Shown here piece after piece: positions 14,599 to 59,466 of a stretch of 64,000 bases of DNA. Below the pieces are notes generated by a model. The model did not search any database, was not told the origin of the DNA, and worked only from the letters and a program-made list of their open reading frames with translations. Numbering within the stretch: position 1 is the stretch's first letter; each line of letters begins with the position of its first letter. A program made the position numbers and the translations under genes. Source of the DNA: Methanocorpusculum sp. (GTDB taxonomy: Archaea > Halobacteriota > Methanomicrobia > Methanomicrobiales > Methanocorpusculaceae); contig NZ_JAUSPQ010000010.1 in NCBI RefSeq assembly GCF_030655665.1, positions 62,001 to 126,000 of the forward strand. Direction: 5' to 3'.

Positions 14599-15141
14599 AC
14601 TACCACCATTGTGTATCTCTCACTATAGGAATACATAGGTATTTGTGCTTCGATGAGGGTTATATTTCACGGTAGGCGGGCTCTGCTTGGCTCCGCTCTG
14701 ATGCTTCATTTTGATTGGGATGCTGAACCTTCGAAGAAACACGAAGACGAAGAAACTGAATGGAGCGACGAAGACCATCTCCATCCGGAAAAGAAGACAG
14801 CGGCTCCGGCGCTGCGTTGTCAGAGCGCTGTTAGAGGAGGAAGAGGAGGGAAGGGGGTGCAGATGCGTGATGGAGCACCATGCATGGATTGTAGAGAGGA
14901 TACAGGCGGGTGTGGATGGATGAAAAACCGCGTTTGCATGGCTACGCCTTGCTCTCCGCGCCGATTCGCTCTCTGACTTGGGATGAGAACCATCACTTGA
15001 AGTCAGGAGAGTATATGGCTGGGTGTGGATGGATGAGATAAAACCAACCGCGAATCGAATCCACACAAATATCACATACATTCAATCTGAGCACCCCACT
15101 CTTGATGAACTACCTTGCAACACACAGGGACCCCAGCAAAT
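14599..15141. other. Non-coding region with decayed repeat fragments
   Basis: No convincing gene. Two related fragments (near 14907-14935 and 15020-15055) share GGGTGTGGATGGATGA followed by an 'accgcg' word, and resemble the D unit of the composite repeats at 53 and 57 kb. The word GCGCCGATTCGC at about 14958 also occurs in D. This looks like the worn edge of the composite repeat that follows. Confidence 0.45.
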
Positions 15142-15540
15142 AGGATACTCCACCGCGGGACGCTCCGCGCCGGAGTCGCGTCCCCGCACCCCGAATAAAA
15201 AAAGAGTTCGCACTATTCCCCTATTAAAAACAGAAGAACTTCCTTTCCTCCGCCCCTGTCCCCCTTTTCGTGCATTTCGTTGATTTTGGTGGCTTTCACG
15301 TGGGGGACGGGGGAGGGTTCTTCAGGGGTCAACCCGGCTGATTCTTTCTTTTTCGTGTTTTCGGGGATTTTTCGTGAATTTCGTGTGATGGAGATATGCA
15401 TCTACACTTTCTAATACATGAACTCGACGTACACCCAAAAAAAGAGATTCTGCACCCTTGTATATTTCGCGCCGATTCGCGGTTGGTTTTTTCTCATACA
15501 TCCACACCAAGTCATCTCCCTTCCGAATTGGATTCACACC
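15142..15540 (+). repeat. Composite interspersed repeat, copy 1 (units A-B-C-tail)
   Basis: Unit A (15142-15200) has the GC-rich palindromic core CCACCGCGGGACGCTCCGCG and ends CCCCGCACCCC. Unit B (15241-15312) contains CCGCCCCTGTCCCCC, TTTCGTTGATTTTGGTGG and GGGGGACGGGGGAGG. Unit C (15345-15395) contains TTTCGTGTTTTCG and GTGAATTTCGTGTGATGGA. A tail with GCGCCGATTCGCGGTTGG follows (from about 15478). The same units in the same order occur at 46.0 and 57.3 kb and, inverted, at 52.8-53.5 kb. The copy abuts the AT-rich gene at 15556. Confidence 0.8.
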
Positions 15541-15555
15541 AACACCCCGTAACTC

Positions 15556-16131
15556 CTATTCTATAGTAACATTCACCTTATGTAATCTGGATTTCAAATC
15601 ATCAAGATTCCAGATCGTCTCAGCCTCCACATTATAAAGCGGATTATAATCAGGATCATCTTCAAGGTCTAATATACCGCTGACTTCTTCCCACCTCAAA
15701 AACAACGCACGACCATAATTATCAAGATTCTGCTTTTGACGTTTTAAGTCTTCAAGCTCACATTCCAAATTCTCAATTTTTAACTGAATGGCGTCTGCTT
15801 TTACGTATTTTTCATTCAACAGTGAATCATACTTTTCTGCCTTGATTTTACGTGAATCTTCTGTGTCGCCATCTTCAACACCTTTGAATTGTTCAAGCCA
15901 TTTCAGTGAATCTGCATCATCCAGTAGCTCCTCGATTTCACATTTAATATCATACAATTCTTTGGAAGAGTGGCGATGTCTATCCACTTCTTTAAGTGAA
16001 GCAGTACCCCCATTCCCTCTAAATATATCATCCATATTTGATTCCAAAAGTCTTTTCTTCTTTTCGTATAGTAAAATCAATGCAGAAATATAACAGAGAA
16101 CTTTATCGGAAGGTGACTGTGTATCGGTCAT
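15556..16131 (-). CDS. Hypothetical coiled-coil protein
   Basis: An unrecognised acidic and lysine-rich protein of 191 residues from the ATG at 16131 (MTDTQSPSD); an earlier ATG at 16164 would add 11 residues. Residues about 60-140 are rich in charged heptads (YDIKCEIEELLDDADSL, KADAIQLKIENLECELEDL) and should form a coiled coil. No catalytic motif, signal peptide or membrane span is seen. It is AT-rich compared with core genes and sits directly beside composite repeat copy 1, as expected of accessory cargo. Confidence 0.6.
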   Translation of the reverse strand: MTDTQSPSDKVLCYISALILLYEKKKRLLESNMDDIFRGNGGTASLKEVDRHRHSSKELYDIKCEIEELLDDADSLKWLEQFKGVEDGDTEDSRKIKAEKYDSLLNEKYVKADAIQLKIENLECELEDLKRQKQNLDNYGRALFLRWEEVSGILDLEDDPDYNPLYNVEAETIWNLDDLKSRLHKVNVTIE

Positions 16132-34621: not shown

Positions 34622-34911
34622 TTGGCGGGCGGGCTGCCACGTAGTGGCGGCCTTAGCTGAGCAAATCTTTGATTTGCGAGCGGCGGGGACCTTTAGGTCC
34701 CTCAGCTGAGGCGGGCTGACCCGCAGGGGCGGCCTCAGCCGAGCAAGTCGATAGACTTGCGACCAGGGCTGAGCGAAGCGAAGACTTGCGAGCGGCGGGG
34801 AATCCGAAGGTTGTGGATACAGGAGAAGAGAAAAACCTCTCCTAAATCCAAAAAATAGGATATTCCACCGCGAGCCGCTCCGCGCTGGAGTCGCGGCTCC
34901 GCACCCCCATA
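34622..34911. repeat. Array of two-hairpin modules followed by unit A
   Basis: Hairpins at 34634-34648 (GCCACGTAGTGGC), 34661-34677 (GCAAATCTTTGATTTGC), about 34687-34703 (GGGACCTTTAGGTCCC) and 34743-34760 (GCAAGTC...GACTTGC) are joined by CAGCTGAG and GGCGGGCTG words. A unit A follows (34857-34911, TATTCCACCGCGAGCCGCTC to CGCACCCCC). Together with the array at 35.7 kb it borders the HepT/MntA pair. Confidence 0.75.
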
Positions 34912-34962
34912 ATCAGAAAAAGGAATGAGATGTGATAGAAGTATATTTGCCAACTGTCAAAT

Positions 34963-35310
34963 TTAGGATTCAAGTGCTGTGCGTAGGGCAGATATCTGCA
35001 TATAAAGAGGCGGAATATCGTTTACTGCAAGATCCCAGACGTAGTTTAGATTGACATTTGCATACGCATGAATCAGACGGTCTCTCATACCGGCCATTTT
35101 TCTCCAGGGAATCTCGGGATATTGCGTGCGAATTTCTTCAGGGATATGTTTTGCTGCTTCACCGATGATTTCAATGAAACGAATGATACCGCCGCTGTAG
35201 AGCGGATCGGTTGAGAACTCCTGATAACTCATGCGATTGACAGCAGTCATGATGTTTTCAGATTGTTCACAGATGTCATCTAAATACGTGAGAATATCTG
35301 GTGTTTTCAT
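34963..35310 (-). CDS. HepT-like ribonuclease toxin (DUF86)
   Basis: A 115-residue helical protein with the HEPN RNase motif R-x4-H-x-Y as RDRLIHAY near residue 73, and [16 protein letters not shown] before it. In HepT/MntA systems this RNase is held inactive by AMPylation from the partner nucleotidyltransferase. Its start overlaps the MntA-like stop by 4 bp, so the two are made together, antitoxin first. It is bordered on both sides by hairpin arrays. Confidence 0.88.
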
Positions 35311-35636
35311 ACAGCAGCTTGTCCTGCACCGCAGAGGATGATGTCTTTTTGTATGTTGGAGCGAATACGTGGTTTAAGATATTCAAAGGAGACGAGGTCG
35401 ACTTTGCGTTCCAAAATCGATTCAAGGTACTCAGCGAGAGCAAGATAATTGTCGAATGTGTCGAATTCCGGTTTGAATGCATACAGGAGGTCAATGTCAC
35501 TGTAGGGTGTGTCGTCCCCGCGTGCGACTGAACCGAAGAGAGCGAGGAGCTCAATGCCGTACACTGTCTGGAGGGTTAAAAGGGAAGAGGAAAGTCGTGT
35601 AAGGACACAGTTTTTGATACTTACATATTCAGACAT
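35307..35636 (-). CDS. MntA-like minimal nucleotidyltransferase antitoxin
   Basis: A 109-residue nucleotidyltransferase with the signature [20 protein letters not shown] near residue 34 (GSxARGxxxxxSDIDL). In known pairs it adds AMP groups to HepT and silences it. A good Asp pair is visible. The 3' end overlaps the toxin gene, the usual order of this toxin-antitoxin family. Confidence 0.88.
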
Positions 35637-35659
35637 TGACTAATATCTGAGTATTTGTC

Positions 35660-36093
35660 CTTCGCATGTAATGAGGTTTTGCCTTTGATGGCGGGGTGGC
35701 GACGAAGTCGACGCCCTCAGCTGAGCAAATCTCTGATTTGCGAACGGGCGCAGGCGGGGACCTTTAGGTCCCTTAGCCGAGGCGGGTTGGACGCGAGCGA
35801 AGCGAAGCGGACGACCTCAGCCGAGCAAGTTTTCGAAGGAAACTTGCGACCAAGGCTTTGCCTTGCGAGTTGCTGGGTGAGTCGATGATTTCAGCGGAGG
35901 CGGTGATCGCAGTCGGCAATTCCCGGTTTCTGGGAGCTTTGAGACGGGCGGTTCACCCAATATTCTCTCACCCGCACACCTGCAAGCTGATCAATGTGAT
36001 CGTCAAAGGTCGAAGACTTCGCGTCCAACACACTCGCAAATCAAAGATTTGCTCGGCTAAGGCCACCCCTACGGGGCAGCCCGCCCACAAATT
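35660..36093. repeat. Second array of two-hairpin modules
   Basis: Stems are visible at 35724-35740 (GCAAATCTCTGATTTGC), near 35755-35771 (GGGACCTTTAGGTCCC), at 35825-35847 (GCAAGTTT...AAACTTGC) and at 36036-36052 (GCAAATCAAAGATTTGC). They are joined by CTCAGCTGAG, GGCGGGTTGG and GGCTAAGGCC words. The part 35880-36000 shows no clear unit. There is no gene between the MntA-like start and 36135. Confidence 0.75.
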
Positions 36094-43680: not shown

Positions 43681-44653
43681 GGCTGTGCTGAATAGGGTGC
43701 GTCAATTGGAATCATGATAGTCAGTTTCAATGCTTATTTTACTGGATGATTCTCTTTTAGCCCGTTATCATCCTGACTTTATTTATCCGAACATTAATCA
43801 TACTTAAATTGAGAAGTATTTTGTATGAGCAAGATTGGGACACCCAATTATGGCAGGAGTATTGACGGGCACGCCCCATTCCAGCCGTTATTGGATTCTC
43901 ATTATTAATGTATACTCATTTCATATTGTCTGTATTAGTGGGTACTGACAGAACAAATGCCCAATCTCCCCCGTTCATCAGCCCCTGTCCCCCTATCCAT
44001 CCGCCTAATATCCCTCCGGCTCTTTTTTTATCCATCTATGTATCTATATACATATTTACACAAATCAAAAAAAACGATACCCCGGAGAAAACTACGTCCG
44101 GACGTAAAGAGATTTGTGTTTATGTATATATATACACAAAAGCGCTCTCTCTCTCTTCTGTACTAAAAAAAGTATATAGTATATATAAAAATAAAGTGAT
44201 TGATGAGCACTTTTTCTTCCCGTAGTTACTTACGGACGGACGTAGTCTCTGGGGGGTCATCGTTTTTTCTGGACGTCCAGGTTGTGGGTTTATATATGAT
44301 GAGGGTGTTGGGAGGGAAATACGGCAGGAATGGGCGTATTTTTTGTTTGGGGTGTGGTTTTCGTGTGGAGGTGGGGGGTTTGGGGGTTGATAGGTGGGGG
44401 CCATACTAGGAGAGGATGGAGAGAATGAAGTTACATTATTTTTCTAGAATTAGGACATCTCGTCACCAAGATGTTGGGTTTGTTCATTTTTTGAAACTCA
44501 TCTCGCTCAGCGAGAACGCCTTTTTTGCGCACTTTTGAGGCAATATCGCACCGTTCAGTAATGGGTTTATATGGTTATGTCACCCATATTTTAATAATTG
44601 ATCGAGAATTATATGATAATTATTACAAATAACAACTTTTGGGTGTGGCATAA
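43681..44653. other. 970-bp region without a recognised gene
   Basis: AT-rich, with homopolymer and dinucleotide tracts (TATATATAC, CTCTCTCTCTC near 44146-44156) and a G-rich block at 44345-44400. A fragment near 43970-44000 (CAGCCCCTGTCCCCCTATCC) resembles the start of unit B. The longest frames are low-complexity and have no family homology. It includes the inverted-repeat element at 44091-44246. Confidence 0.5.
44091..44246. repeat. Small inverted-repeat (MITE-like) segment
   Basis: The left end ACTACGTCCGGACGTAAAG and the right end CTTACGGACGGACGTAGT are inverted versions of each other with a few mismatches (right end reversed: ACTACGTCCGTCCGTAAG). The 120 bp between are AT-rich and non-coding. 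This is the layout of a small non-autonomous element, but no second copy is visible here. Confidence 0.4.
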
Positions 44654-45586
44654 ATGAAGAATAAAAGGCAATGCCCATTAAAAGGAGTAATTCTGATTAC
44701 TATCCTAGTTTGTGCCGTTACAATTTTTCTTACACTTTTGATCAACAAGATTATGATTGCCGAGAGTTTTTGGGAGGCACTGCGGGATATCAATACATAT
44801 TACGCTTCACTTCTTTCTTTTATTGTCGCAGTTATTCTTGCGATTATTACTGGTTTTTACGCTGTGTCTGCTTATTCCCAGAAAAAAGCCTCGGAAAAAT
44901 CAGTGGAGGTGATGACAAATCAGATTCAGTTAGATAAACAACCCTGTGTTTACCCAACTCTCCATTATGGCTCCTCTGGATCAGCTAAACGTAATAAAGA
45001 CAGAGATTGGGCGCTTGAATTTCATGTACCTCTCAAAAATATTGGGGATTATACCGCATTGTCTGTACAAACATTAGGTTATTTAGAATTGCAGTATCTC
45101 CCAAATGCCCCAATATCATTACGGATGAGCGGCCCCTCGTGTATGACATCTTATGTTGCACTTGGAGAAGAGAGGGATAAGAAATCCGCAAAACTTACAT
45201 TTGATTATTCGGCATTATCACAACTCTTAGAAGATATGAAAGAATGTGCAGAACATTATCCAGAATATAAGTATGGGACGGGTGAATCCGAGAGATATGG
45301 GCCAAAACTTGTTATAAAGGTACTTTATAAGAATATTTTAGGTGAAAATTTTGTTGGAATTGTTTCGAAAAGACTCAAAAGCCCTGTAAAACTAGCGAAT
45401 GTCGATGGAGAGATAAAAGGAATTAATTTTGATTTGACATCATTACAAGAAACTGATGATTTAAACCTTTTCTTTAATTACACCTCGGACAATACCTCAG
45501 AAACAGAATATCATCTTGCAACTAATGATGAAATATATGAGTTTATGTTTGAAATAACAGATGAAATGAAAAACAGTATTAAATGA
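44654..45586 (+). CDS. Membrane protein of unknown function (accessory)
   Basis: A 310-residue protein with two N-terminal spans (GVILITILVCAVTIFLTLLI and SLLSFIVAVILAIITGFYAV) and a cytosolic domain of about 230 residues that looks beta-rich (WALEFHVPLKNIGDYTALSV, PKLVIKVLYKNILGENFVGI). It is a typical 'DUF' membrane sensor layout, yet I know no family name. AT-rich codon use separates it from core genes. It is followed 34 bp later by the small zinc-ribbon protein, probably in one operon, and then by composite repeat copy 2. Confidence 0.65.
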   Translation: MKNKRQCPLKGVILITILVCAVTIFLTLLINKIMIAESFWEALRDINTYYASLLSFIVAVILAIITGFYAVSAYSQKKASEKSVEVMTNQIQLDKQPCVYPTLHYGSSGSAKRNKDRDWALEFHVPLKNIGDYTALSVQTLGYLELQYLPNAPISLRMSGPSCMTSYVALGEERDKKSAKLTFDYSALSQLLEDMKECAEHYPEYKYGTGESERYGPKLVIKVLYKNILGENFVGIVSKRLKSPVKLANVDGEIKGINFDLTSLQETDDLNLFFNYTSDNTSETEYHLATNDEIYEFMFEITDEMKNSIK

Positions 45587-45620
45587 AAAATGAATTTCAA
45601 ATTAAGTATGAGGTAAAACT

Positions 45621-45983
45621 ATGAAATTATATGAAACTATTCAAGATGCCTACAAATTAGCACAAACATATAATGATCCTGAATTATTAGGGAAATTAAT
45701 GGATGTGCGAGGACAGATCCTTGACATTCAAGAAGAACTTATGGACTTGCGTCAAGAAGTTGAAAATCTCAGGAAAATTCAAGCAATAGAATCGGATATT
45801 GAGCGTCATGATGAACCCTATATTACACTAAAAAGTGATGGGAACAAAATACTGCGTTGTGCAACATGCTGGGATCGTAAGCATGAACTCATACAATTAC
45901 AAAAAACGCCACCTCAGTTTAATCACGTCATGGGAACACACGAATGTCCGATCTGCAAAACAAAAGTGAACTACACCAAATAA
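45621..45983 (+). CDS. Small coiled-coil and zinc-ribbon protein
   Basis: A 120-residue protein with an N-terminal helical region (ILDIQEELMDLRQEVENLRK, residues about 37-56) likely to form a coiled coil. Two Cys pairs (LRCATCWDRKHELIQL and HECPICKTKVNYTK) make a zinc ribbon. Similar small proteins occur in accessory DNA in bacteria, with no known function. It is AT-rich and lies in the pair just upstream of composite repeat copy 2. Confidence 0.65.
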   Translation: MKLYETIQDAYKLAQTYNDPELLGKLMDVRGQILDIQEELMDLRQEVENLRKIQAIESDIERHDEPYITLKSDGNKILRCATCWDRKHELIQLQKTPPQFNHVMGTHECPICKTKVNYTK

Positions 45984-46014
45984 CCCGGAACATTCATACT
46001 AATTACCTCTATAC

Positions 46015-46345
46015 AGGATATCTCCACCGCGGGACGATAGAAAAAAGAAGAATTTCCGTTCTTCCGCCCCTGTCCCCCTTTTCGTGAATTTTGTTGAGTT
46101 TTGTGATTTTTGGTGTTGGGGGACGGGGGAGGGCACTACATCTTTCCCACCATTTTTCATTCTTTTTATTTTTGTGTTTTCGTGGACGTTTTCGTGAATT
46201 TCGTGTGATGGATTCGCTCAATCAATAAAAATCCCTTACACCAACACGAAGCACACCAAAAAAACTCCCGCCACCATTGTATACTTCGCATACCTGAGGG
46301 CGAGCCGGTCGGCTGGCTGTGGTCGTCGCCAACCGGCCCCAAAAA
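46015..46345 (+). repeat. Composite interspersed repeat, copy 2
   Basis: A truncated unit A (46015-46037, GGATATCTCCACCGCGGGAC) is followed by unit B (46062-46132) and unit C (46160-46212), in the order seen at 15.1 kb. A tail (ACACCAAAAAAACTCCCGCC and onward) reaches the uvrA 3' end. Unit D is missing. The copy lies between the accessory pair and uvrA. Confidence 0.8.
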
Positions 46346-50946: not shown

Positions 50947-52229
50947 TGTTCGCTCCTGATGACATCGATGGAGGCTTTCATCGCAGCGGCGCCGGCGGAC
51001 ATTACGCAGTCGGGAATATCCTTCGGCGCAAGGGCGGCGCCGGCGATGTAGATCCCGGGACGGATCGTTCCCGCCGGGTCGAGCTTCATATCGGCTGAAC
51101 TCAGGAACTGGTGTTCGTCGAGGCCGAGACCGAGCGACTTCGCAAGACGCACGGTGTCCGGTTCGGGCAGCATGCCGACCGAGAGGATGACGAGATCGGC
51201 TTCCAGATTGATGAACTCCCTTGTCTCGGTGTTCTCGACCGGGAGAACGAGCCGGCCTTTTCCGGTGTCCTGCACATCCCCCGGCAGACCGCGAATGATC
51301 TTGACGCCGGCGTTGATCGCACGTTCATAATACTCCTCGTAGCCTTTTCCGTAGGCACGGATGTCCGAGTAGAGAATTGAGACCTCGCAGTCGGGATAAT
51401 GCTCTTTGATGAGCATGGAGTTTTTGAGGGCATACATGCAGCAAACGCAGGAACATATGTTCCTTTTGATCGTCATGTCACGCGAACCTACGCACTGGAC
51501 AAAGACGATGCTTTTCGGGGTCTCGCCGTTCGAGAGCCGGCGAATGTTTCCTTCGGTCGGTCCGCCTGCATTGATCATCCGTTCGAACTCGAGGGAGGTG
51601 ATGACGTCGGGGTAGCGAAGATAGCCGAATCTGGACTTTTTCTGCGGGTCAAAAAGCGAGTAACCGGTCGCGATCACGACGGCGGATGCATTGATCTCGA
51701 GGGTTTCAACTTTTGCCTCGGTGACTTTGAGGACGGCGTCTTTGCCGCAGACTCCGTAGCAGAGGCCGCATTCAATACAGTGAAGATTGTCTTTGACGAC
51801 AAGGTTCGGGATCGACTGGGCATGGGGTTTGTAGATCGCTTTTCGAACCCCGATGCCGGCATCGAATTTATTGTAGACTTCGATCGGGCAGATGGTGATA
51901 CAATCTCCGCAGCCGGTGCACTCTTTTTCATTGATGTATCGGGGATATTTGGTGACGGTCACGGTGAAATTCCCAACCTCTCCTTCGATCTTCTCGACCT
52001 CGGCGAGGGTGAGGATGGTAATGTTCGGGTGCCGGGAGATCTCGGCCATCTTCGGCGAAAGGATACACATCGAACAGTCGTTTGTCGGGAAGGTTTTGTC
52101 GAGCATGGCCATGTGGCCGCCGATCGAGGGCTCACGCTCGATCAGATAAACATGGATGTTGTGATTGGCGATGTCCATGGCACTTTGGATGCCGGCGACC
52201 CCTCCGCCAATGACAACAACATTACTCAT
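50943..52229 (-). CDS. Short HdrA-like FAD and iron-sulfur protein
   Basis: A 428-residue flavoprotein related to subunit A of CoB-CoM heterodisulfide reductase. It starts at once with the FAD Rossmann motif SNVVVIGGGVAGIQSAMDIA (start 52229), so the extra N-terminal domain of full HdrA (about 650 residues) is missing, as is the C-terminal ferredoxin. Present are the HdrA Cys motif FPTNDCSMCILSPKMAE, two [4Fe-4S] motifs CTGCGDCITICP and CIECGLCYGVC, FVQCVGSRD, ICSCVCCMYALKNSML and DIRAYGKGYEEYYERA. The start overlaps the carbonic anhydrase-like gene by 8 bp. It may bifurcate electrons or serve another redox partner. Confidence 0.85.
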   Translation of the reverse strand: MSNVVVIGGGVAGIQSAMDIANHNIHVYLIEREPSIGGHMAMLDKTFPTNDCSMCILSPKMAEISRHPNITILTLAEVEKIEGEVGNFTVTVTKYPRYINEKECTGCGDCITICPIEVYNKFDAGIGVRKAIYKPHAQSIPNLVVKDNLHCIECGLCYGVCGKDAVLKVTEAKVETLEINASAVVIATGYSLFDPQKKSRFGYLRYPDVITSLEFERMINAGGPTEGNIRRLSNGETPKSIVFVQCVGSRDMTIKRNICSCVCCMYALKNSMLIKEHYPDCEVSILYSDIRAYGKGYEEYYERAINAGVKIIRGLPGDVQDTGKGRLVLPVENTETREFINLEADLVILSVGMLPEPDTVRLAKSLGLGLDEHQFLSSADMKLDPAGTIRPGIYIAGAALAPKDIPDCVMSAGAAAMKASIDVIRSEQ

Positions 52230-52713
52230 GGAGATACCTCTGCCCAAGAGAGACGTAGGTCGCCGCATTTTTCAGATTGCCGGCAGCCTCTTCGGGGGTG
52301 AGTTCGCGAACGACCTTTCCGGGAACGCCGATGACAAGCGAGTTCGGGGGGATCTCCTTTCGCTCGGAGACGAGAGCTCCGGCGGCGATGAGGGATCCTT
52401 TGCCGATCTTTGCACCGTTCAAAACGATCGCTCCCATGCCGATGAGTGCGTTGTCTTCGATCACTGCCCCGTGAATGATCGCCCCGTGGCCGATCGAGAC
52501 GTTTTTCCCGATCGAGACGGGATAGCCGACACTTTCATGGATGACGGCATTATCCTGGACATTTGAGCCGTTGCCGATTGATATTTTTTCCATATCTGCA
52601 CGAAGGACCGCCCCGAAAAGGATGGTGACGTTATCGCCGAGCGTTACGTCGCCTTTGAGGGTCGCATTGGGTGCGACATAGGTGTTTTTTCCGATAGAAC
52701 CGCCGAAGTCCAT
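52222..52713 (-). CDS. Gamma-carbonic anhydrase family protein (left-handed beta-helix)
   Basis: A 163-residue hexapeptide-repeat protein: GGSIGKNTYVAPNATLKGDV, LGDNVTILFGAVLRADMEKI and ALIGMGAIVLNGAKIG. The three zinc-ligand His are seen in AVIHESVGY, IGHGAIIHGAVIED. It lacks the long acidic loop of the Cam enzyme, as do most archaeal YrdA/CaiE-like proteins, so carbonic anhydrase activity is uncertain. It is the first gene of the minus-strand run through HdrA-like and mtnA. Composite repeat copy 3 lies directly upstream. Confidence 0.88.
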   Translation of the reverse strand: MDFGGSIGKNTYVAPNATLKGDVTLGDNVTILFGAVLRADMEKISIGNGSNVQDNAVIHESVGYPVSIGKNVSIGHGAIIHGAVIEDNALIGMGAIVLNGAKIGKGSLIAAGALVSERKEIPPNSLVIGVPGKVVRELTPEEAAGNLKNAATYVSLGQRYLHE

Positions 52714-52789: not shown

Positions 52790-53452
52790 GGCTTTCGCTC
52801 TATTCATGCCTCCTTCTTTTTCCGATGCTGGTTTTCTTTTTGGTGTACGCTTCGGTTTCGTGTACGGGATTTTTTTGATGGGCGCATCCATCACACGAAA
52901 TTCACGAAAACAAGACGAAAACACGAAAAATCTAAAAGAGGAGAGATGGGGCATGCATATCGTCCCCTCCCGTTTGTTCACAAATCAAAGATTTGCTCAG
53001 CTGAGGTCGGCCGCTTTCAGCGTCCAACCCGCCCCCCACACGAAATTCGCGAAAACGCAAATCAAAGATTTGCTCAGCTGAGGTCGGCCGCTTTCAGCGT
53101 CCAACCCGCAAATCAACGAAATGCACGAAAAGGGAGACAGGGGCGGAAGGACGGGAGATATTTGGTGGCTCTCAAAAGAAAGGAGTTGGCTGGTTGTGGA
53201 TACAAGAGAAAAAACAAACCGCGAATCGGCGCGAATCCCGCCCTTCGGGCTCCCAGAATCGGATTTGCTTTTCCTCACTTGAACACGGCGGGTCTTATCG
53301 CCCCGCCGGTTCATCCCTCATCGGGAGTGTTCGGGCAAATCCTGTCGCCGCCCCAGCGGCTCCCTTGAGGAAAAATGGATGTTTATGGTTATATTTTGGG
53401 GTGCGGGGACGCGACTTCGGCGCGGAGCGTCCCGCGGTGGAGATATCTTATC
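52790..53452 (-). repeat. Composite interspersed repeat, copy 3, with two 52-bp two-hairpin inserts
   Basis: Reading the minus strand from 53452: unit A (53452-53395), D (about 53366-53215, including the word GCGAATCGGCGCGAATCCCG and CCGGTTCATCCCTC), unit B (53152 downwards), unit C (52935-52885) and the tail ending near 52800. Two identical 52-bp modules sit inside B at 52981-53032 and 53058-53109, each with CAAATCAAAGATTTG, CTCAGCTGAG and GCGG/CCGC arms. Copy 4 (57.3 kb) reads through both points without them. ORFs here are by-products of the repeat. Confidence 0.85.
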
Positions 53453-53532
53453 TTATGAGATTAAGTTCTTATCTCCTTTACATGGGGAGGGTCGAAAACT
53501 GAACCTTCTGTTCAGATTTCTCTGTGGAATAA

Positions 53533-55380
53533 TTAAAAAAACGAATCAAGCGACGATTGATTATCAGGGAGAATATTCATAAGATATTCTTTCCAGATAG
53601 CTAAATCGCATTTTGGAACTGCAATTTTCAAAAAATATTTAGGGCGAGTTATGGCGACGTAGATATTTCTAAGTTCTTCCTCTCTTACACATTTTTCTCT
53701 CTTATCTGTATCTTCGTTTTTCATATTCTTCAACATTGTTGAGTATTTTTTCTTACGAACTGTTCTTTCTTTTAAAATCAATAACACAGCATCAAATGAT
53801 TTTCCTTTTGCTTTATGAATAGTACTCAGTTCAACCCCATCATATTTGTACTGTGCTTGTGGCAAGGGAAACACTTTTGAAATTGGATTGGTAGTTACAA
53901 TTGAATATTGATGTATCTCATCTGATTTAATATTCGAGTATTTTATCCTCATTCCATATTTTTTAGTGATGGGTTCTGCCTTGTCAATCCATTCATTAAA
54001 ATTCATGTTTGTTTCCGGCAAATTTTGAAGAATTTCAGTTATGATAGTTAATGTGGAGGTATAGTTATTTTTTTCAAAATAATTTCTGATATCTTGATGA
54101 GAACATACTGAAATATTTTCAATATCTTTTATATATGCCATTAATGCATAACGATATGCTTCGAAAATGTTGTCATTATCATAAAGATATTTTCCATAAA
54201 CGAGATCTTTTAATTTAGTATCCAGATCTCTCTGAAAATATTTACCTTCCTTCCCTGTATTATAACTGTTACTTTCACCTTCACCACTAATTTGATTAAT
54301 CAAATTTTTACTGCGGCAAAGTATGACTGATGAATCAAGCGAGATAAAATCAGTTGCTTTGCATTCTTCTATGAATTTCTGAGATATTTTTTTGTAATCA
54401 TTATTATCGTACCCAATAATTTCCGGTTCAATTTCGCTCATCTTTTCGAGACGTTTTGCAGTAGATGTAGATATTTTCTCAAGTGTGGAGAGGGGGTGCG
54501 TAAATTCACAGATTTTCTGGGTACTTCGCCTATTATTAGACAAAATACAGGAGTTCTCTGACCATTCTTCGAACTTCTTTAAAAACAGACTAGGTTTTGC
54601 ATCATTCCACTCAAAGATTGACTGGTCAGGATCTCCAATCAGCATGAGATTTTGGAGGTTTCCAGTATTAATAAGTAAATCCAGAATTTCCATTTGTATC
54701 TCTGATGTGTCCTGAGCTTCATCAATAATTAATTCAGGAAAACGTAATACAAGTGCTTTCGTTATTTCTGGATAACTGGTCAGGATTTTCCAGGCAATAT
54801 AATTTGCATCGGCCTGAGTAACATATCCCTCTTTCCAAAAAAATTCTTTGACTTTCCTAAGATTTTGAATGTGCCCAGAATTTTGTTTTTCAAAAAATTT
54901 TTCATCAAATTCAAACCAATTTTTTTCAACTGGATATATTTTATCATCCATATTTAATGAAAAAGCAGCAAAATCTAGTTTGTAGTTTTCCCATCCTGCT
55001 CCTAGTGTCCAACTCCATGATGAATATGGAGCACCTACGAATTTGGGAGATTTTGAGCATCCCATAATCAAATGACCGAATGGGATCACGATAAAATTGT
55101 TTATAAATGAATCTATTGTCCCAAGATAATGTGGGGATTTAACACCATGACCAAAATATTCTGATATATTATTTTCAATTTCTTTCCATGCTACGTTTGT
55201 AAAGGAAATTACTGCAATTCCAGAATATTTTTCCGTCCAATTCTGAAGTTTACGAATGAAACGTGCTGATACACAGTAAGTTTTTCCGCTTCCAGGACCT
55301 GCTCTTATTGCGCACAGTCCCTCCTTTTCATAAACAACTGCTTTTTGCTCTTCAGATAACGTTTCAAAGATTGTCAACAA
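53533..55380 (-). CDS. gajB: UvrD-family helicase, GajB-like subunit of a Gabija defence system
   Basis: A 615-residue SF1 helicase. It has the Walker A AIRAGPGSGKTYCVSARFI at residues 24-42, FTNVAWKEIE, Walker B LIIDEAQDTSEIQMEILDLL near 218, LIGDPDQSIFEW, STIHKAKGKSFDAVLLIL near 525 and YVAITRPKYFLKIAV near 582. In Gabija systems the OLD nuclease (GajA) degrades phage DNA and the UvrD-like GajB cooperates with it. The gene overlaps GajA by 17 bp, in the usual order gajA-gajB. It is longer than described GajB proteins (about 500 residues, from memory). Confidence 0.85.
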   Translation of the reverse strand: MLTIFETLSEEQKAVVYEKEGLCAIRAGPGSGKTYCVSARFIRKLQNWTEKYSGIAVISFTNVAWKEIENNISEYFGHGVKSPHYLGTIDSFINNFIVIPFGHLIMGCSKSPKFVGAPYSSWSWTLGAGWENYKLDFAAFSLNMDDKIYPVEKNWFEFDEKFFEKQNSGHIQNLRKVKEFFWKEGYVTQADANYIAWKILTSYPEITKALVLRFPELIIDEAQDTSEIQMEILDLLINTGNLQNLMLIGDPDQSIFEWNDAKPSLFLKKFEEWSENSCILSNNRRSTQKICEFTHPLSTLEKISTSTAKRLEKMSEIEPEIIGYDNNDYKKISQKFIEECKATDFISLDSSVILCRSKNLINQISGEGESNSYNTGKEGKYFQRDLDTKLKDLVYGKYLYDNDNIFEAYRYALMAYIKDIENISVCSHQDIRNYFEKNNYTSTLTIITEILQNLPETNMNFNEWIDKAEPITKKYGMRIKYSNIKSDEIHQYSIVTTNPISKVFPLPQAQYKYDGVELSTIHKAKGKSFDAVLLILKERTVRKKKYSTMLKNMKNEDTDKREKCVREEELRNIYVAITRPKYFLKIAVPKCDLAIWKEYLMNILPDNQSSLDSFF

Positions 55381-57115
55381 TTGTCACCCATTTGATTGCG
55401 TTTTGAATATAGGCTGGAATTATGAAGGCATCACGGGCAGTTTTGTTTTCCTGTAAATGAATTGCGAGCGCCATGGCGAAATCGGATTTATGATTTTTAC
55501 CTCCGTGTTTAGCAATAAATTCTTTAAAACAATATGCTTTATCCTCCTTTGATATTTTATCAGAAATGTACTCATCTTCAAATTTCTTAGAGTATCCTTT
55601 GCTAATTTGGTCTAACACAGTAATCAGTATTTTATGATTGGATTCATTGTAGAGTTCATATTCAAATGTAATCTCTCCAATCATCACTTTCAGATTATGA
55701 CCTGCCCACCCTTTCGCTGCTGGGTTTGGTTTTCCATCATCGTCAGTGATGATTGCAGCATGAATATTCATTGATTTTTCTGGATCGCCTGAGTTAAATA
55801 ATGGAGCATAATGTCCAAACGAAATCCCATTTACATTTACAATTTCGATTCCGTTTTTGTGGAGATCATATTTACCCTTATCGTTCTCCTTTTCTCCTAG
55901 CATATCCGCAAAGACTCCGATTAACAATTCTTCACTGATTCCTTCTACAAGAATAACCCCTTGTGCAAAGAATAGTTGATTTCTCGTTACATCGAAAAAC
56001 TTTTTCAGATATTTCTTACTATTCGGCTCTAATTCTGCATTTCCAACAACAAAGGCAGTATTCCCATAATTATTTCGGTTTAATACAATTAATGAGTCCA
56101 AATCTGTCGTTGAGGTGATAGTCGGTGAATGCGATGTCACAAATGTTTGCAGATTCTTTTCCGAGTGTGTGGTTACATAATCAAAAAATGTTCTCTGAAG
56201 TTGGGGGTGAAGATGGCTTTCGGGTTCTTCTATAAGGAGACCGTAATAATTTTTATTTCCTGGCTCTCTTAATTTTAATTTTGCCAAAATTGTTGCAACA
56301 TATATGATATTATTGTATCCGAGACCATTTCGTTTTAAACTAAATCTGTCCTCTTCATATGGAGGGAGAGTCATGTAAATACTATCAACTAATTTTTCAA
56401 AATCAAAATCAGTGAGTTTTAGGTCAACATCCTGGTTGTTGGCCAACCCTCTGGTCATATTCATCTGTTCAATCAAATCGTTAATATTGTTTTTACCAAT
56501 TTCAATCTCGTTTGTTAATGTCTGTGTGTTAGAAAGTGCACTTTCAATCTCTTTCACAATATCTTTACGTTTTTGAGGATCGGTGATTTGTTTTCTAAAA
56601 AGTTCTCCCAAGAGACCGTTCCTTACAGGACGTAAATCCTGTTCTGCATTTCGTAATGCTCCAACATGTATGCAGTTGATGAGGTCCCTGGCGTTTTCGG
56701 AAATATAATTCTCTTCCGATTCCCCTCCCCAGATTTTCTTTCTCACTTTCTCTTCGTCATCTCTGGTTTCCAAGGTATATCTATGATGAATTTGAACAGA
56801 CCGCTTCCTGTCAGCAGGATCAACTGCAAGATACTCATAATATACACCCTCCTCCTCTGGGTCTGGGCAGAATGTAAGGTCAAAAGCTATTTTATTGATT
56901 TTTTTCCCATCACCATTATGGTGAAAATCATCTGGTGTAATATAGAGTTTTTTCTGGGATTGTTGTCCGTACTCGAGACATATTCTCAAAGCATCTATCA
57001 CAGCAGTTTTACCTACGTTGTTCTCTCCAATTATGACATTAAGATTTTTATTAAAGCTTATTTTTAAGTTGGATATTGCTCTGAATCCGGATATCTGCAT
57101 GCTTTCGAGATACAT
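55364..57115 (-). CDS. gajA: OLD-family AAA/Toprim endonuclease, GajA-like subunit of a Gabija defence system
   Basis: A 583-residue overcoming-lysogenisation-defect nuclease, close to the usual GajA length. The N-terminal ATPase has VIIGENNVGKTAVIDALR near residue 28, GLLIEEPESHLHPQLQRTFF and VTSHSPTITSTTDLD (D-loop and Walker B). A C-terminal Toprim domain follows (GVILVEGISEELLIGVF with the Glu, then HAAIITDDDGKPNPAAKG with the Asp pair). It is AT-rich compared with the flanking genes. Start at 57115 (MYLESMQISGFRAIS). It is bordered by composite repeats in opposite orientation on both sides of the pair. Confidence 0.9.
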   Translation of the reverse strand: MYLESMQISGFRAISNLKISFNKNLNVIIGENNVGKTAVIDALRICLEYGQQSQKKLYITPDDFHHNGDGKKINKIAFDLTFCPDPEEEGVYYEYLAVDPADRKRSVQIHHRYTLETRDDEEKVRKKIWGGESEENYISENARDLINCIHVGALRNAEQDLRPVRNGLLGELFRKQITDPQKRKDIVKEIESALSNTQTLTNEIEIGKNNINDLIEQMNMTRGLANNQDVDLKLTDFDFEKLVDSIYMTLPPYEEDRFSLKRNGLGYNNIIYVATILAKLKLREPGNKNYYGLLIEEPESHLHPQLQRTFFDYVTTHSEKNLQTFVTSHSPTITSTTDLDSLIVLNRNNYGNTAFVVGNAELEPNSKKYLKKFFDVTRNQLFFAQGVILVEGISEELLIGVFADMLGEKENDKGKYDLHKNGIEIVNVNGISFGHYAPLFNSGDPEKSMNIHAAIITDDDGKPNPAAKGWAGHNLKVMIGEITFEYELYNESNHKILITVLDQISKGYSKKFEDEYISDKISKEDKAYCFKEFIAKHGGKNHKSDFAMALAIHLQENKTARDAFIIPAYIQNAIKWVTIVDNL

Positions 57116-57311
57116 AATTTGTTCTTATCCTGAGTTTTGATTAAAGCTCTAGTGTAATAATACCTTGCTTAGTTTGGTCAGTATCCACAGAAGAAATATT
57201 AAAAATATTCTCTAATTTAATTTTTTTCGGTAACTGATCACAGAATATTTTATCAGAAATCAATTTTCACAATCTGTAAAAATTATATCGCCATCTCACG
57301 GAATCAAAAAT
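57116..57311. promoter_or_regulatory. AT-rich upstream region of the Gabija operon
   Basis: About 195 bp with TATA-like stretches (TTAAAAATATTCTC near 57198, ATAATACCTTGC near 57153), consistent with a promoter reading into gajA on the minus strand. No other feature. Confidence 0.4.
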
Positions 57312-57800
57312 AAGATTCCCCACCGCGGGCCGCCCCACGCCGAAGTAGCGGCCCCGCACCCCCAAAAATAACCAACAATCTCCATATATCCTTACGGGAG
57401 CCGCCGGGGCGGCGACAGGATTTGCCCGAACGTTCCCGATGAGGGATGAGCAAGCCAGCGAAGCTGGATTGCGAAAGTGAGGATAAGCAAATCCGATTCT
57501 GGGAGCCCGAAGGGCGGGATTCGCGCCGATTCGCGGTTGGTTATTTCTTGCGTCCACACTTGCCCATCTACTTTCTTCTCATAAATTCCCAATCTCTCTC
57601 ATTCATCCGCCCCTGTCCCCCTTTTCGTGAATTTCGTTGATTTTCGTGGATTTGGTGTGGGGGACGGGGGAGGGGACGATATGCATGCTCCCTCTCTCAT
57701 CTTTTTGATTTTCGTGTTTTCGTCTGGCTTTCGTGAATTTCGTGTGATGAATGCGCCCACCCAAATGATCCCGTACATGAAATCGAAGCGTACAAAAAAA
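57312..57800 (+). repeat. Composite interspersed repeat, copy 4
   Basis: Units in order: A (57312-57370, CCACCGCGGGCCGCCCCACG), D (57395-57545, including GGGAGCCGCCGGGGCGG and GCGCCGATTCGCGGTTGG), B (57604-57680), C (57703-57752) and the tail to about 57800. No hairpin modules are inserted, so this copy gives the empty sites for copy 3. It lies between the Gabija promoter and the 3' end of the lipocalin gene, whose last codons abut the tail. Confidence 0.85.
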
Positions 57801-57813
57801 GAAGAGGAACTTC

Positions 57814-59466
57814 TCAAAGCCCTCTGGACTTTGCGAGCTCCTCCTGGAGTCGGGCGGCATTCTCCGGTTTCATGAGAAAAGCCATCGCCGAGGCCTTCAG
57901 TTCGTCCGGGATCACAGGCTTTGCAAAGATCTCTATCATCTCCGGCGTGTCGGGGATGCCGGCAAGCCGCAGATTCTGCCGGCAGGCGTCTGCATAACTC
58001 ACATTCTCCAGAAATCCTGACCCGATCCGTTTGCCGTCGGGCGACTCGATTCGGACCGCCCCCTCCGAATACTCCGCTCCTGCCGCAAAAAATCCCTGCT
58101 GACCTGTTGAAACGATCGGGATCATCACAAACCGTTTGTATGCATCCGGGACCTCCGAAGTTTCCACGGTGACCTCCACACGATTCGGATACCAGGCACG
58201 GGTCGTCAGATACTGACCGTCGGTCACCGAACTCTGCACCCAGTCAGTGACCCGGATCACTCCTTTGACCGGGAAATACTCGCTGTTTTCCTTGATATAC
58301 GATCCAACGGCGGCCGCGGTCATAATACCCGGAGGGGTAGGACCGGTCTGCATGAAAAATTCCTTCTGCTCGTTCGTATGGATCGCCGAAAGAGCAAACT
58401 CGGTGTCGTTATCGAACTGGATCTCCATCCAGTCCCATCCGAGGGCGGGCTTGTCCCCGAGAAGTCCCACTGCCCGCAGGACATCGATCCGCGGACTGCC
58501 GCCGGGCATAAAGCCGGTTCCCCACTGATGATCATACCAGAACTTGCCGCCGCCAAGTCGGAGTTCTTCTCCATCGATCGAGATCCGGCTCTTGACCGGA
58601 TCGACCCGAAGATTCGGGACCGAATAATATAGTGTGCCCACGCCTCCGCAGCTTGGAAGCATCCCTTCGTCCCCGTTCAGTACATAGCCTTTGGTCTGAA
58701 CGATGGTGATATCGATCGAGATCTCGGCCGGGGTATCCTTGTGATTGTCGATCCCCCATGCCTGCAGTCTAAGCGGGAAGAGAGAGTCGTTTGATTGAGA
58801 CGCGAGGGTGTTTTTTCCAACAGAATACCTGTACGGGTTTGTTGAGAAATCGATAAGCCCGGTCGTTCCTGCAACGATGATGGGCCGCATCCGGTAATGC
58901 CTCCCGCCGGCCGAACTCACGGCAAGATGGATCTCGACGATCTGATTTTCGAGATCACTCAGTCCTGCCTGCTTTGCCATCTCAGGAGGGAGAAGAGAGT
59001 AACGCCAGAACATCAGCTGGACACCGTACTCGCGGTCTTTTGTATCGAAGACGTTCCCGACAAAGAAGTGCCAGCCTACCTGATACTCGAACTGCGGGCG
59101 GTCGTCGGTCGGAAAGGTGAATTTTTTATCGATCGGAAGTTCCTGATACCCGCGAGCACTGTCCATACCAAAGAGATTGGTCATCGCATACGCCTGATGA
59201 GGCGTCAGATCGCCGGCGTATGTGGAAAGGGCGGCATAGCGTTTTGTGTAATCAGGATTGAAACTTTCCGGAGCGGCACGGAGATCCGCGATTCTCGCCT
59301 GGATCCGTTCGCCGAATGCAGAGCTGAGATTCGTCCGGCCTTCGATCTGTTTCAGAATATCCGGGGGTATGGTCTTAGGTGTGTATTCATGCATCCACAA
59401 AGCACGGGCGATGTTTTCCTTCGTCTCCGGGTCAAGCATCACGGATTGGGTATCTTTTGTGGCCAT
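57814..59466 (-). CDS. CrtC/AttH-like lipocalin-fold protein
   Basis: A 550-residue protein without a signal peptide. The central part has the tandem lipocalin pattern of AttH/CrtC (carotenoid hydratase-like) proteins: FEYQVGWHFFVGNVFDTKDR, YGVQLMFWRYSLLP, FWYDHQWGTGFMPGG, GWDWMEIQFDNDTEFALSAI and VEVTVETSEVPDAYKRFVMI. A helical N-terminus (EHTPKTIPPDILKQIEG-like) and a helical C-terminus (MIEIFAKPVIPDELKASAMA) flank it. Such proteins bind or hydrate hydrophobic chains. A role in archaeal lipids or isoprenoids is possible but unproven. Confidence 0.75.
   Translation of the reverse strand: MATKDTQSVMLDPETKENIARALWMHEYTPKTIPPDILKQIEGRTNLSSAFGERIQARIADLRAAPESFNPDYTKRYAALSTYAGDLTPHQAYAMTNLFGMDSARGYQELPIDKKFTFPTDDRPQFEYQVGWHFFVGNVFDTKDREYGVQLMFWRYSLLPPEMAKQAGLSDLENQIVEIHLAVSSAGGRHYRMRPIIVAGTTGLIDFSTNPYRYSVGKNTLASQSNDSLFPLRLQAWGIDNHKDTPAEISIDITIVQTKGYVLNGDEGMLPSCGGVGTLYYSVPNLRVDPVKSRISIDGEELRLGGGKFWYDHQWGTGFMPGGSPRIDVLRAVGLLGDKPALGWDWMEIQFDNDTEFALSAIHTNEQKEFFMQTGPTPPGIMTAAAVGSYIKENSEYFPVKGVIRVTDWVQSSVTDGQYLTTRAWYPNRVEVTVETSEVPDAYKRFVMIPIVSTGQQGFFAAGAEYSEGAVRIESPDGKRIGSGFLENVSYADACRQNLRLAGIPDTPEMIEIFAKPVIPDELKASAMAFLMKPENAARLQEELAKSRGL

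Follow-up and report, generated by a model that had tools for sequence, protein, structure and literature searches.

We analysed a window of 64,000 nucleotides from a Methanocorpusculum genome of 1.81 Mb (G000; contig C10, positions 62001-126000), in which the genes gajB and gajA form a Gabija defence pair bracketed by long inverted composite arms (52,838-53,458 and 57,304-57,800). Comparison with related genomes makes it rather likely that this pair is the cargo of a transposon-derived, transposase-less cassette family, and that its members exchange their cargo, the probable route being recombination via the arms. At the window site, judging from the sequences, the arms have stayed and the cargo differs, being either Gabija or a protein of 1,245 aa. 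The mobility that we infer for the cassettes comes from genome comparison. Besides G000, the genomes mainly used were those of M. labreanum Z (G005; complete, a single contig of 1,804,962 bp, the size also given in the accessible text of PMC3035222), M. parvum XII (G006), Methanocorpusculum sp. UBA424 (G010; a metagenome-assembled genome, MAG) and a further Methanocorpusculum (G023).

The Gabija pair and its arms

Both proteins match the Gabija models of PADLOC (Table 1). GajA shows the expected OLD-like ATPase plus TOPRIM organisation (Pfam AAA_15 and OLD-like_TOPRIM, both above the cut-off), and the protein encoded beside it is the expected UvrD-like helicase (Pfam UvrD-helicase). The two genes are neighbours on the minus strand and overlap by 17 bp. 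As in known Gabija systems, the genes are adjacent and overlapping and the family models cover most of the length of both proteins; the only unusual feature is the repeat setting. Gabija is known to act through a nucleotide-controlled, DNA-cutting GajA and a GajB helicase, and by analogy the two proteins would be expected to follow this route. The GC content is 0.33-0.36 in the two genes and 0.351 over the whole cargo, versus 0.52 and 0.54 in the 1.5-kb flanks. The first-pass annotation had described an AT-rich gajB/gajA pair at 53.5-57.1 kb between a GC-richer gamma-carbonic anhydrase homologue and a lipocalin; the PADLOC and Pfam matches and the GC values agree with this description. It had also placed the pair between composite repeats in minus and plus orientation. 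The inverted arms were indeed found, but each is built of nested modules and not of one repeat.

From the inside outwards, the modules are a (~90 nt), b (149-154 nt), c and d. The two arms match each other in four inverted pairs: 53311-53443/57317-57449 (133 nt at 86%), 53207-53280/57475-57548 (74 nt at 96%), 52927-52971/57668-57712 (45 nt at 91%) and 52838-52929/57709-57800 (92 nt at 88%). The 521-bp right arm has 83 matches in the window's own genome.

Table 1. Genes and arm modules of the Gabija element in the window, with its flanking genes
Feature	Position	Strand	Description	Match or remark
Left flanking gene	52222..52713	minus	hexapeptide / gamma-carbonic-anhydrase-like	96% identity in G005 and G010
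Left outer arm	52838..52971	minus	module d, outermost inverted repeat	
Insertion in left arm	52981..53109		mini-hairpin unit, two identical 52-nt direct copies	
Left core arm	53210..53363	minus	module b	hairpin type ACCGG
Left inner module	53368..53458	minus	module a	UBA424 homology ends at 53458
gajB	53533-55380	minus	615 aa, UvrD-like helicase, TTG start	PADLOC GajB, E 3e-153
gajA	55364-57115	minus	583 aa, OLD-like ATPase with TOPRIM nuclease domain	PADLOC GajA, E 4e-136
Right inner module	57304..57396	plus	module a	G005/G010 homology resumes at 57386
Right core arm	57397..57545	plus	module b	hairpin type CAGC
Right module c	57546..57616	plus	module c	
Right outer arm	57617..57800	plus	module d and outermost inverted repeat	
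Right flanking gene	57814..59466	minus	CrtC/lipocalin family	80-83% identity in G005 and G010

Conserved arms and variable content at the same site

In M. labreanum Z and UBA424, the same flanking genes (gamma-carbonic anhydrase on the left, lipocalin on the right) and the same inverted arms enclose a protein of ~1,245 aa in place of Gabija (a 1,133-aa protein and a 116-aa fragment in G005, 1,245 aa in G010; 81% identity between the two proteins). Homology with G010 stops at 53458 and resumes at 57386. The left b of G000 is 96% identical to the right b of G005 and 79% to its left b, and the right b of G000 is 96% identical to the left b of G005; for the inner module a, the match is syntenic (90% to UBA424). 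A whole-cassette inversion between G000 and G005, suggested by the cross-matching of b, was rejected because module a is syntenic, and a mosaic arm exchange is therefore preferred over a simple inversion. These alignments show the arms of this site to be mosaic, which fits crossing-over or gene conversion between arms.

The locus is thus not invariant among relatives, and content also differs between species at four other sites with both flanks conserved. The DSR1 site measures 4 kb in G000 and 320-580 bp in G010, G023 and G005. At the type I restriction-modification (R-M) site, the R-M operon of G005 corresponds to proteins of 362 and 202 aa in G000 and of 413 aa in G010 (the site is rearranged in G023 and cut off by a contig end in G006). 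The PDDEXK_3 site holds a PDDEXK_3 gene in G010 versus a 544-bp remnant in G005, with flanks 66-71% similar. The CRISPR site is occupied in G010, where a type I-C CRISPR-Cas locus lies between terminal inverted repeats (TIRs); in G023 and G000, where the site has no b, only 40 and 146 bp, respectively, separate its flanking genes. The two genes are not neighbours in G005 and G006, which are uninformative. A related type I-C locus lies elsewhere in G000 (cas1 96%, cas7 95%), with a truncated b on one side. Two loci whose differences were seen with only one shared flank (L045 and L083) were excluded from the count of sites. These comparisons support the proposal of the first-pass annotation that the repeats could allow recombination and the cassette be movable, or the site a hotspot for the swapping of defence genes.

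Spread, orientation and structure of the repeat family

A module b query gave 41, 41 and 22 matches in G000, G005 and G023, merged into 30, 28 and 18 copies (76 in total; matches to one end of b alone, up to ~50 nt long, and a match of ~85 nt in G005, L052, are not counted). All 34 close b pairs of these three genomes are in minus-then-plus order, with b pointing outward: neighbouring copies less than 13 kb apart comprise 34 '-+', 3 '+-', 1 '++' and no '--'. The repeats are therefore not placed at random, a possibility that the first-pass annotation had set against its own proposal. The gaps within b pairs are trimodal, with 57-96 bp (22 pairs), 496-543 bp (3 pairs) and 1,976-11,564 bp (9 pairs).

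The whole right arm matches something in 15 out of 25 genomes of the genus (its own included). Five genomes were confirmed to contain full b copies; G011 has a few and G014 none. When one genome per species was searched (84,980 species), the 25-nt core of b was found only in Methanocorpusculum and in one 'Bacilli' MAG, STD2_52, where it occurs in three contigs (L129, L134, L136) that are probably Methanocorpusculum contamination. No b core was found in viral contigs and no small element in plasmid and phage collections. The accessible text of PMC10035134 describes an environmental Methanocorpusculum clade of six species, including M. labreanum and M. parvum, to which the six b-bearing genomes may correspond.

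For module b, 65 arms out of 125 records were aligned, after exclusion of long and duplicate arms and of those containing N. In the first hairpin, one base pair is C-G in 37 arms and G-C in 27, a compensatory change. The covariation score is 0.104 versus 0.047 for shuffled alignments, and none of 500 shuffles scored as high. The inner hairpin occurs in several unrelated versions, and the 3' end is T-rich and directed outward. The mean folding z of the 76 arms is about equal on the two strands (-2.2 and -2.5), and an Rfam scan of the window gave no match. Integron attC-like sites, suggested by the variable inner hairpin, were set aside since the arms are inverted and not direct like the repeats of attC arrays.

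Some further copies deserve mention. Six contigs of G000 (C1, C2, C3, C8, C10, C11) start within family elements, with a TIR at most ~330 bp from the start; the repeats therefore break this assembly. In M. labreanum (L153:1950-2792), module d alone forms a minus/plus pair around a PDDEXK_3-like open reading frame (ORF). Within the window, small nested hairpin clusters of the GAGCAA...TTGCGAG type lie at 34622-36091, and such hairpins are also inserted within b arms, as if hairpins entered hairpin loops. A composite copy at 15138-15559 (a, d and the end of b; terminal repeat with one mismatch at 15559) adjoins an AT-rich 202-aa ORF. AT-rich ORFs of 105, 310 and 120 aa (GC 0.35-0.37) at 43908-46216 lie between a module c fragment and a copy of module d, and may represent a further cargo; no PDB sequence matches the 310-aa protein.

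Small elements resembling MITEs

Pairs with a centre of 57-96 bp form small elements of ~500-800 bp. Outside b, they terminate in ATAGGA(C/G)TTACGCGGTG, in mirror orientation, as 17-bp TIRs. A search for this pattern allowing at most 3 mismatches gave 21 and 22 matches on the two strands of G000, 29 and 30 in G005, and 9 and 11 in G023, compared with 0-4 for the reversed pattern. Identical 4-bp flanks, i.e. target duplications, border 9 of the 28 TIR-bounded elements in the loci fetched; shuffling of the right flanks gave a mean of 1.4 such matches and never reached 9 in 10,000 trials. With TIRs and target-site duplications, the small elements share two features of miniature inverted-repeat transposable elements (MITEs) and mobile insertion cassettes (MICs). 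Many sit between convergent genes. Two sets occupy sites shared across species (L042=L053=L080; L065=L069); these look vertically inherited, and are therefore old and mostly not moving now.

Large elements and their cargo

The five genomes yielded 11 b pairs with a gap of more than 1.9 kb, G006 having none with both arms. Four of them belong to G000 and enclose the Gabija genes of the window, a DSR1-like gene (locus L035), a protein of 637 aa (L036) and a cluster of five genes whose products include HerA-like, HATPase, radical-SAM and mREase_IV/DUF3427 proteins (L045). The four pairs of G005 enclose a relative, 574 aa long, of the L036 protein (L055), an R-M operon of type I (L056), Vsr with an HATPase protein and a C5-methylase (L059) and the 1,133-aa protein of the window site (L033). 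The remaining pairs hold a 431-aa protein in G023 (L048) and, in G010, the 1,245-aa protein (L032) and the type I-C CRISPR-Cas locus (L079; array of at least 21 repeats). Recognised defence systems were found in 6 out of 11. A search for the repeat pair with different genes inside, as the first-pass annotation suggested, thus finds other, mostly defence, cargo elsewhere in the genus. For 10 of the 11 elements (L047/L055 skipped as a duplicate entry), the mean GC is 0.379 inside versus 0.528 outside, the CRISPR-Cas element being the least AT-rich cargo (0.467). The ~500-bp gaps in G010, G006 and G023 contain a PDDEXK_3 protein; this cargo, with arms, occurs at three different sites in three species.

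The DSR1-like gene consists of two overlapping ORFs (L035:2496-5857; 264 and 865 aa), perhaps through a frameshift. In the 637/574-aa protein (L036:2265-4178, L055:4442-6166), a C-terminal D...ECK stretch looks, by eye, like a PD-(D/E)XK nuclease. Structure predictions for two unassigned cargo proteins were poor (mean pLDDT, a per-residue confidence score, of 31 and 39).

The cargo does not extend beyond the arms, and the genes on their outer side are for the most part ordinary. A control with 117 outer neighbours (PADLOC, E <= 1e-10) gave matches to 42 families, type I methylases and SspA/DndA models among them; no family was matched by more than two neighbours, and the figure of 42 counts families rather than matching neighbours. 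Several solo b copies have AT-rich defence-like genes on their inner side: type I R-M (L098), PDC-S06 (L106), PDC-S31 with mREase_IV (L072), PDC-S61 (L051) and PDC-S65 (L049). A DrmD-like gene lies on the inner side of one solo copy (L092) and beside an arm at L083. The inner-side genes of two others (L050, L071) are ordinary.

Discussion

Mobile insertion cassettes are MITE-like elements that carry passenger genes, and defence hotspots are fixed places in genomes where varied defence systems are found. The cassettes described here recall several such systems as far as the available portions of the cited sources describe them. With MITEs (PMC10969869) and MICs they share TIRs, target duplications and the apparent lack of a transposase, but they carry defence systems as passengers, have long, structured arms of nested modules, and change cargo at one and the same site; the words cargo, defense and CRISPR do not occur in the accessible text of that review of prokaryotic MITEs. 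Tn7-like transposons (PMC8649781) likewise bring varied defence to fixed places, with the same core and unrelated cargo. Here, in contrast, the repeats are dispersed over many sites of one genome, no integrase or tRNA target was seen, and no Tns-like match was found among the scanned cargo proteins, no genome-wide search having been made. R-M units with flanking repeats or insertion sequences (PMC3031569) also move or are replaced via these repeats, whereas here many unrelated systems share a single arm family that is specific to the genus. Bacterial interspersed mosaic elements (BIMEs), made of repetitive extragenic palindromes (REPs) and mobilised by RAYT (PMC2817692), are inverted pairs of structured repeats with compensatory changes; b is longer, forms part of an element that has TIRs at its ends as well as target duplications, and flanks operons. 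The components, i.e. Gabija, MITEs, defence-carrying transposons, repeat-moved R-M units and REP/BIME pairs, are known singly. No published account of this repeat family was found in the literature searched, whose coverage leaves out most subscription journals.

Members of the family consist of two diverging, structured b arms of ~149 nt with nested modules around a centre, the small form being a MITE-like element and the large form having a defence operon in the centre. In the mechanism that we favour, the mirror symmetry of the arms and their similarity between many sites could allow a double crossover to replace the cargo, in either orientation. Donor DNA with the same arms, from another site or another cell (a resident or an incoming element), would supply the new cargo. 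A trans-acting transposase may have inserted whole loaded elements, or may once have spread the family.

Transposition would explain more than this if arms and cargo jumped as a unit by means of a trans-acting transposase, the arms being long terminal repeats that do not recombine. The TIRs and 4-bp duplications of the small elements fit such a process, as do the CRISPR-Cas element, TIR-ended on both sides and facing orthologous gaps without b in two other species, and the PDDEXK_3 element present at three sites. We nevertheless consider pure transposition unlikely, given that only the interior differs at the window site, where three species have homologous outer modules and flanks, that the core arms there are cross-matched rather than syntenic, and that intact TIRs are missing from most loaded elements. 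It is very improbable that the arms are neutral landing pads, i.e. that intergenic gaps independently gathered MITEs and acquired AT-rich genes and that the bracketing is coincidental. The position of many small elements between convergent genes and the occurrence of defence genes without arms would agree with it, but not the outward orientation of every b pair, the restriction of cargo to the inside of the arms next to mostly ordinary outer neighbours, or the breaks of homology at the arms. The compensatory changes in b and its outward-facing T-rich 3' end would suit arms that are mainly functional RNAs or terminator-like, kept for insulating neighbours from foreign operons, with exchange as a by-product. 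Such a role has little chance of being the main one, as folding is similar on both strands, most arms flank a tiny gene-free centre, and the window has no Rfam match.

Several observations weigh against arm-mediated exchange in a mobile family. The Gabija element has no TIR of the small type near 52.8 or 57.8 kb (at most 4 mismatches), nor is a target duplication obvious. In the three genomes, the TIRs of a pair are almost always less than 1 kb apart, and the one longer pair, in G005 (L162; right end weak, 3 mismatches), showed no transposase-like ORF on inspection. None of the elements yielded a transposase or recombinase, no dedicated search for transposase families having been made, and most elements do not appear to be moving at present. 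Eight of the 76 b copies are solo, two of them at contig starts. Cargo in 5 of the 11 large elements (three protein families) matches no recognised defence family, and among seven N6_Mtase loci in five genomes, one lies within a b pair, one beside a solo b and five in neither position. In the UBA424 MAG, the left arm of the CRISPR element includes a run of N, so that the evidence for this insertion comes from the right junction and from scaffolding; this weakness does not affect comparisons with the complete genome of M. labreanum Z.

More tentatively, Methanocorpusculum might keep ~11-17 standard, structured and mirror-symmetric sockets per genome, through which arm recombination exchanges complete immune systems between sites and species, in the manner of a domesticated transposon family without its own recombinase. 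If this were true, the exchanged systems would include Gabija, sirtuin, R-M and a whole CRISPR-Cas locus. How defence genes on the chromosome are gained and lost when no integrase or transposase accompanies them is poorly understood, above all in methanogens, and one repeat family bracketing many unrelated systems would offer a concrete and testable route. The family would also serve as a marker for new systems, making the cargos without a recognised family candidate new defence genes.
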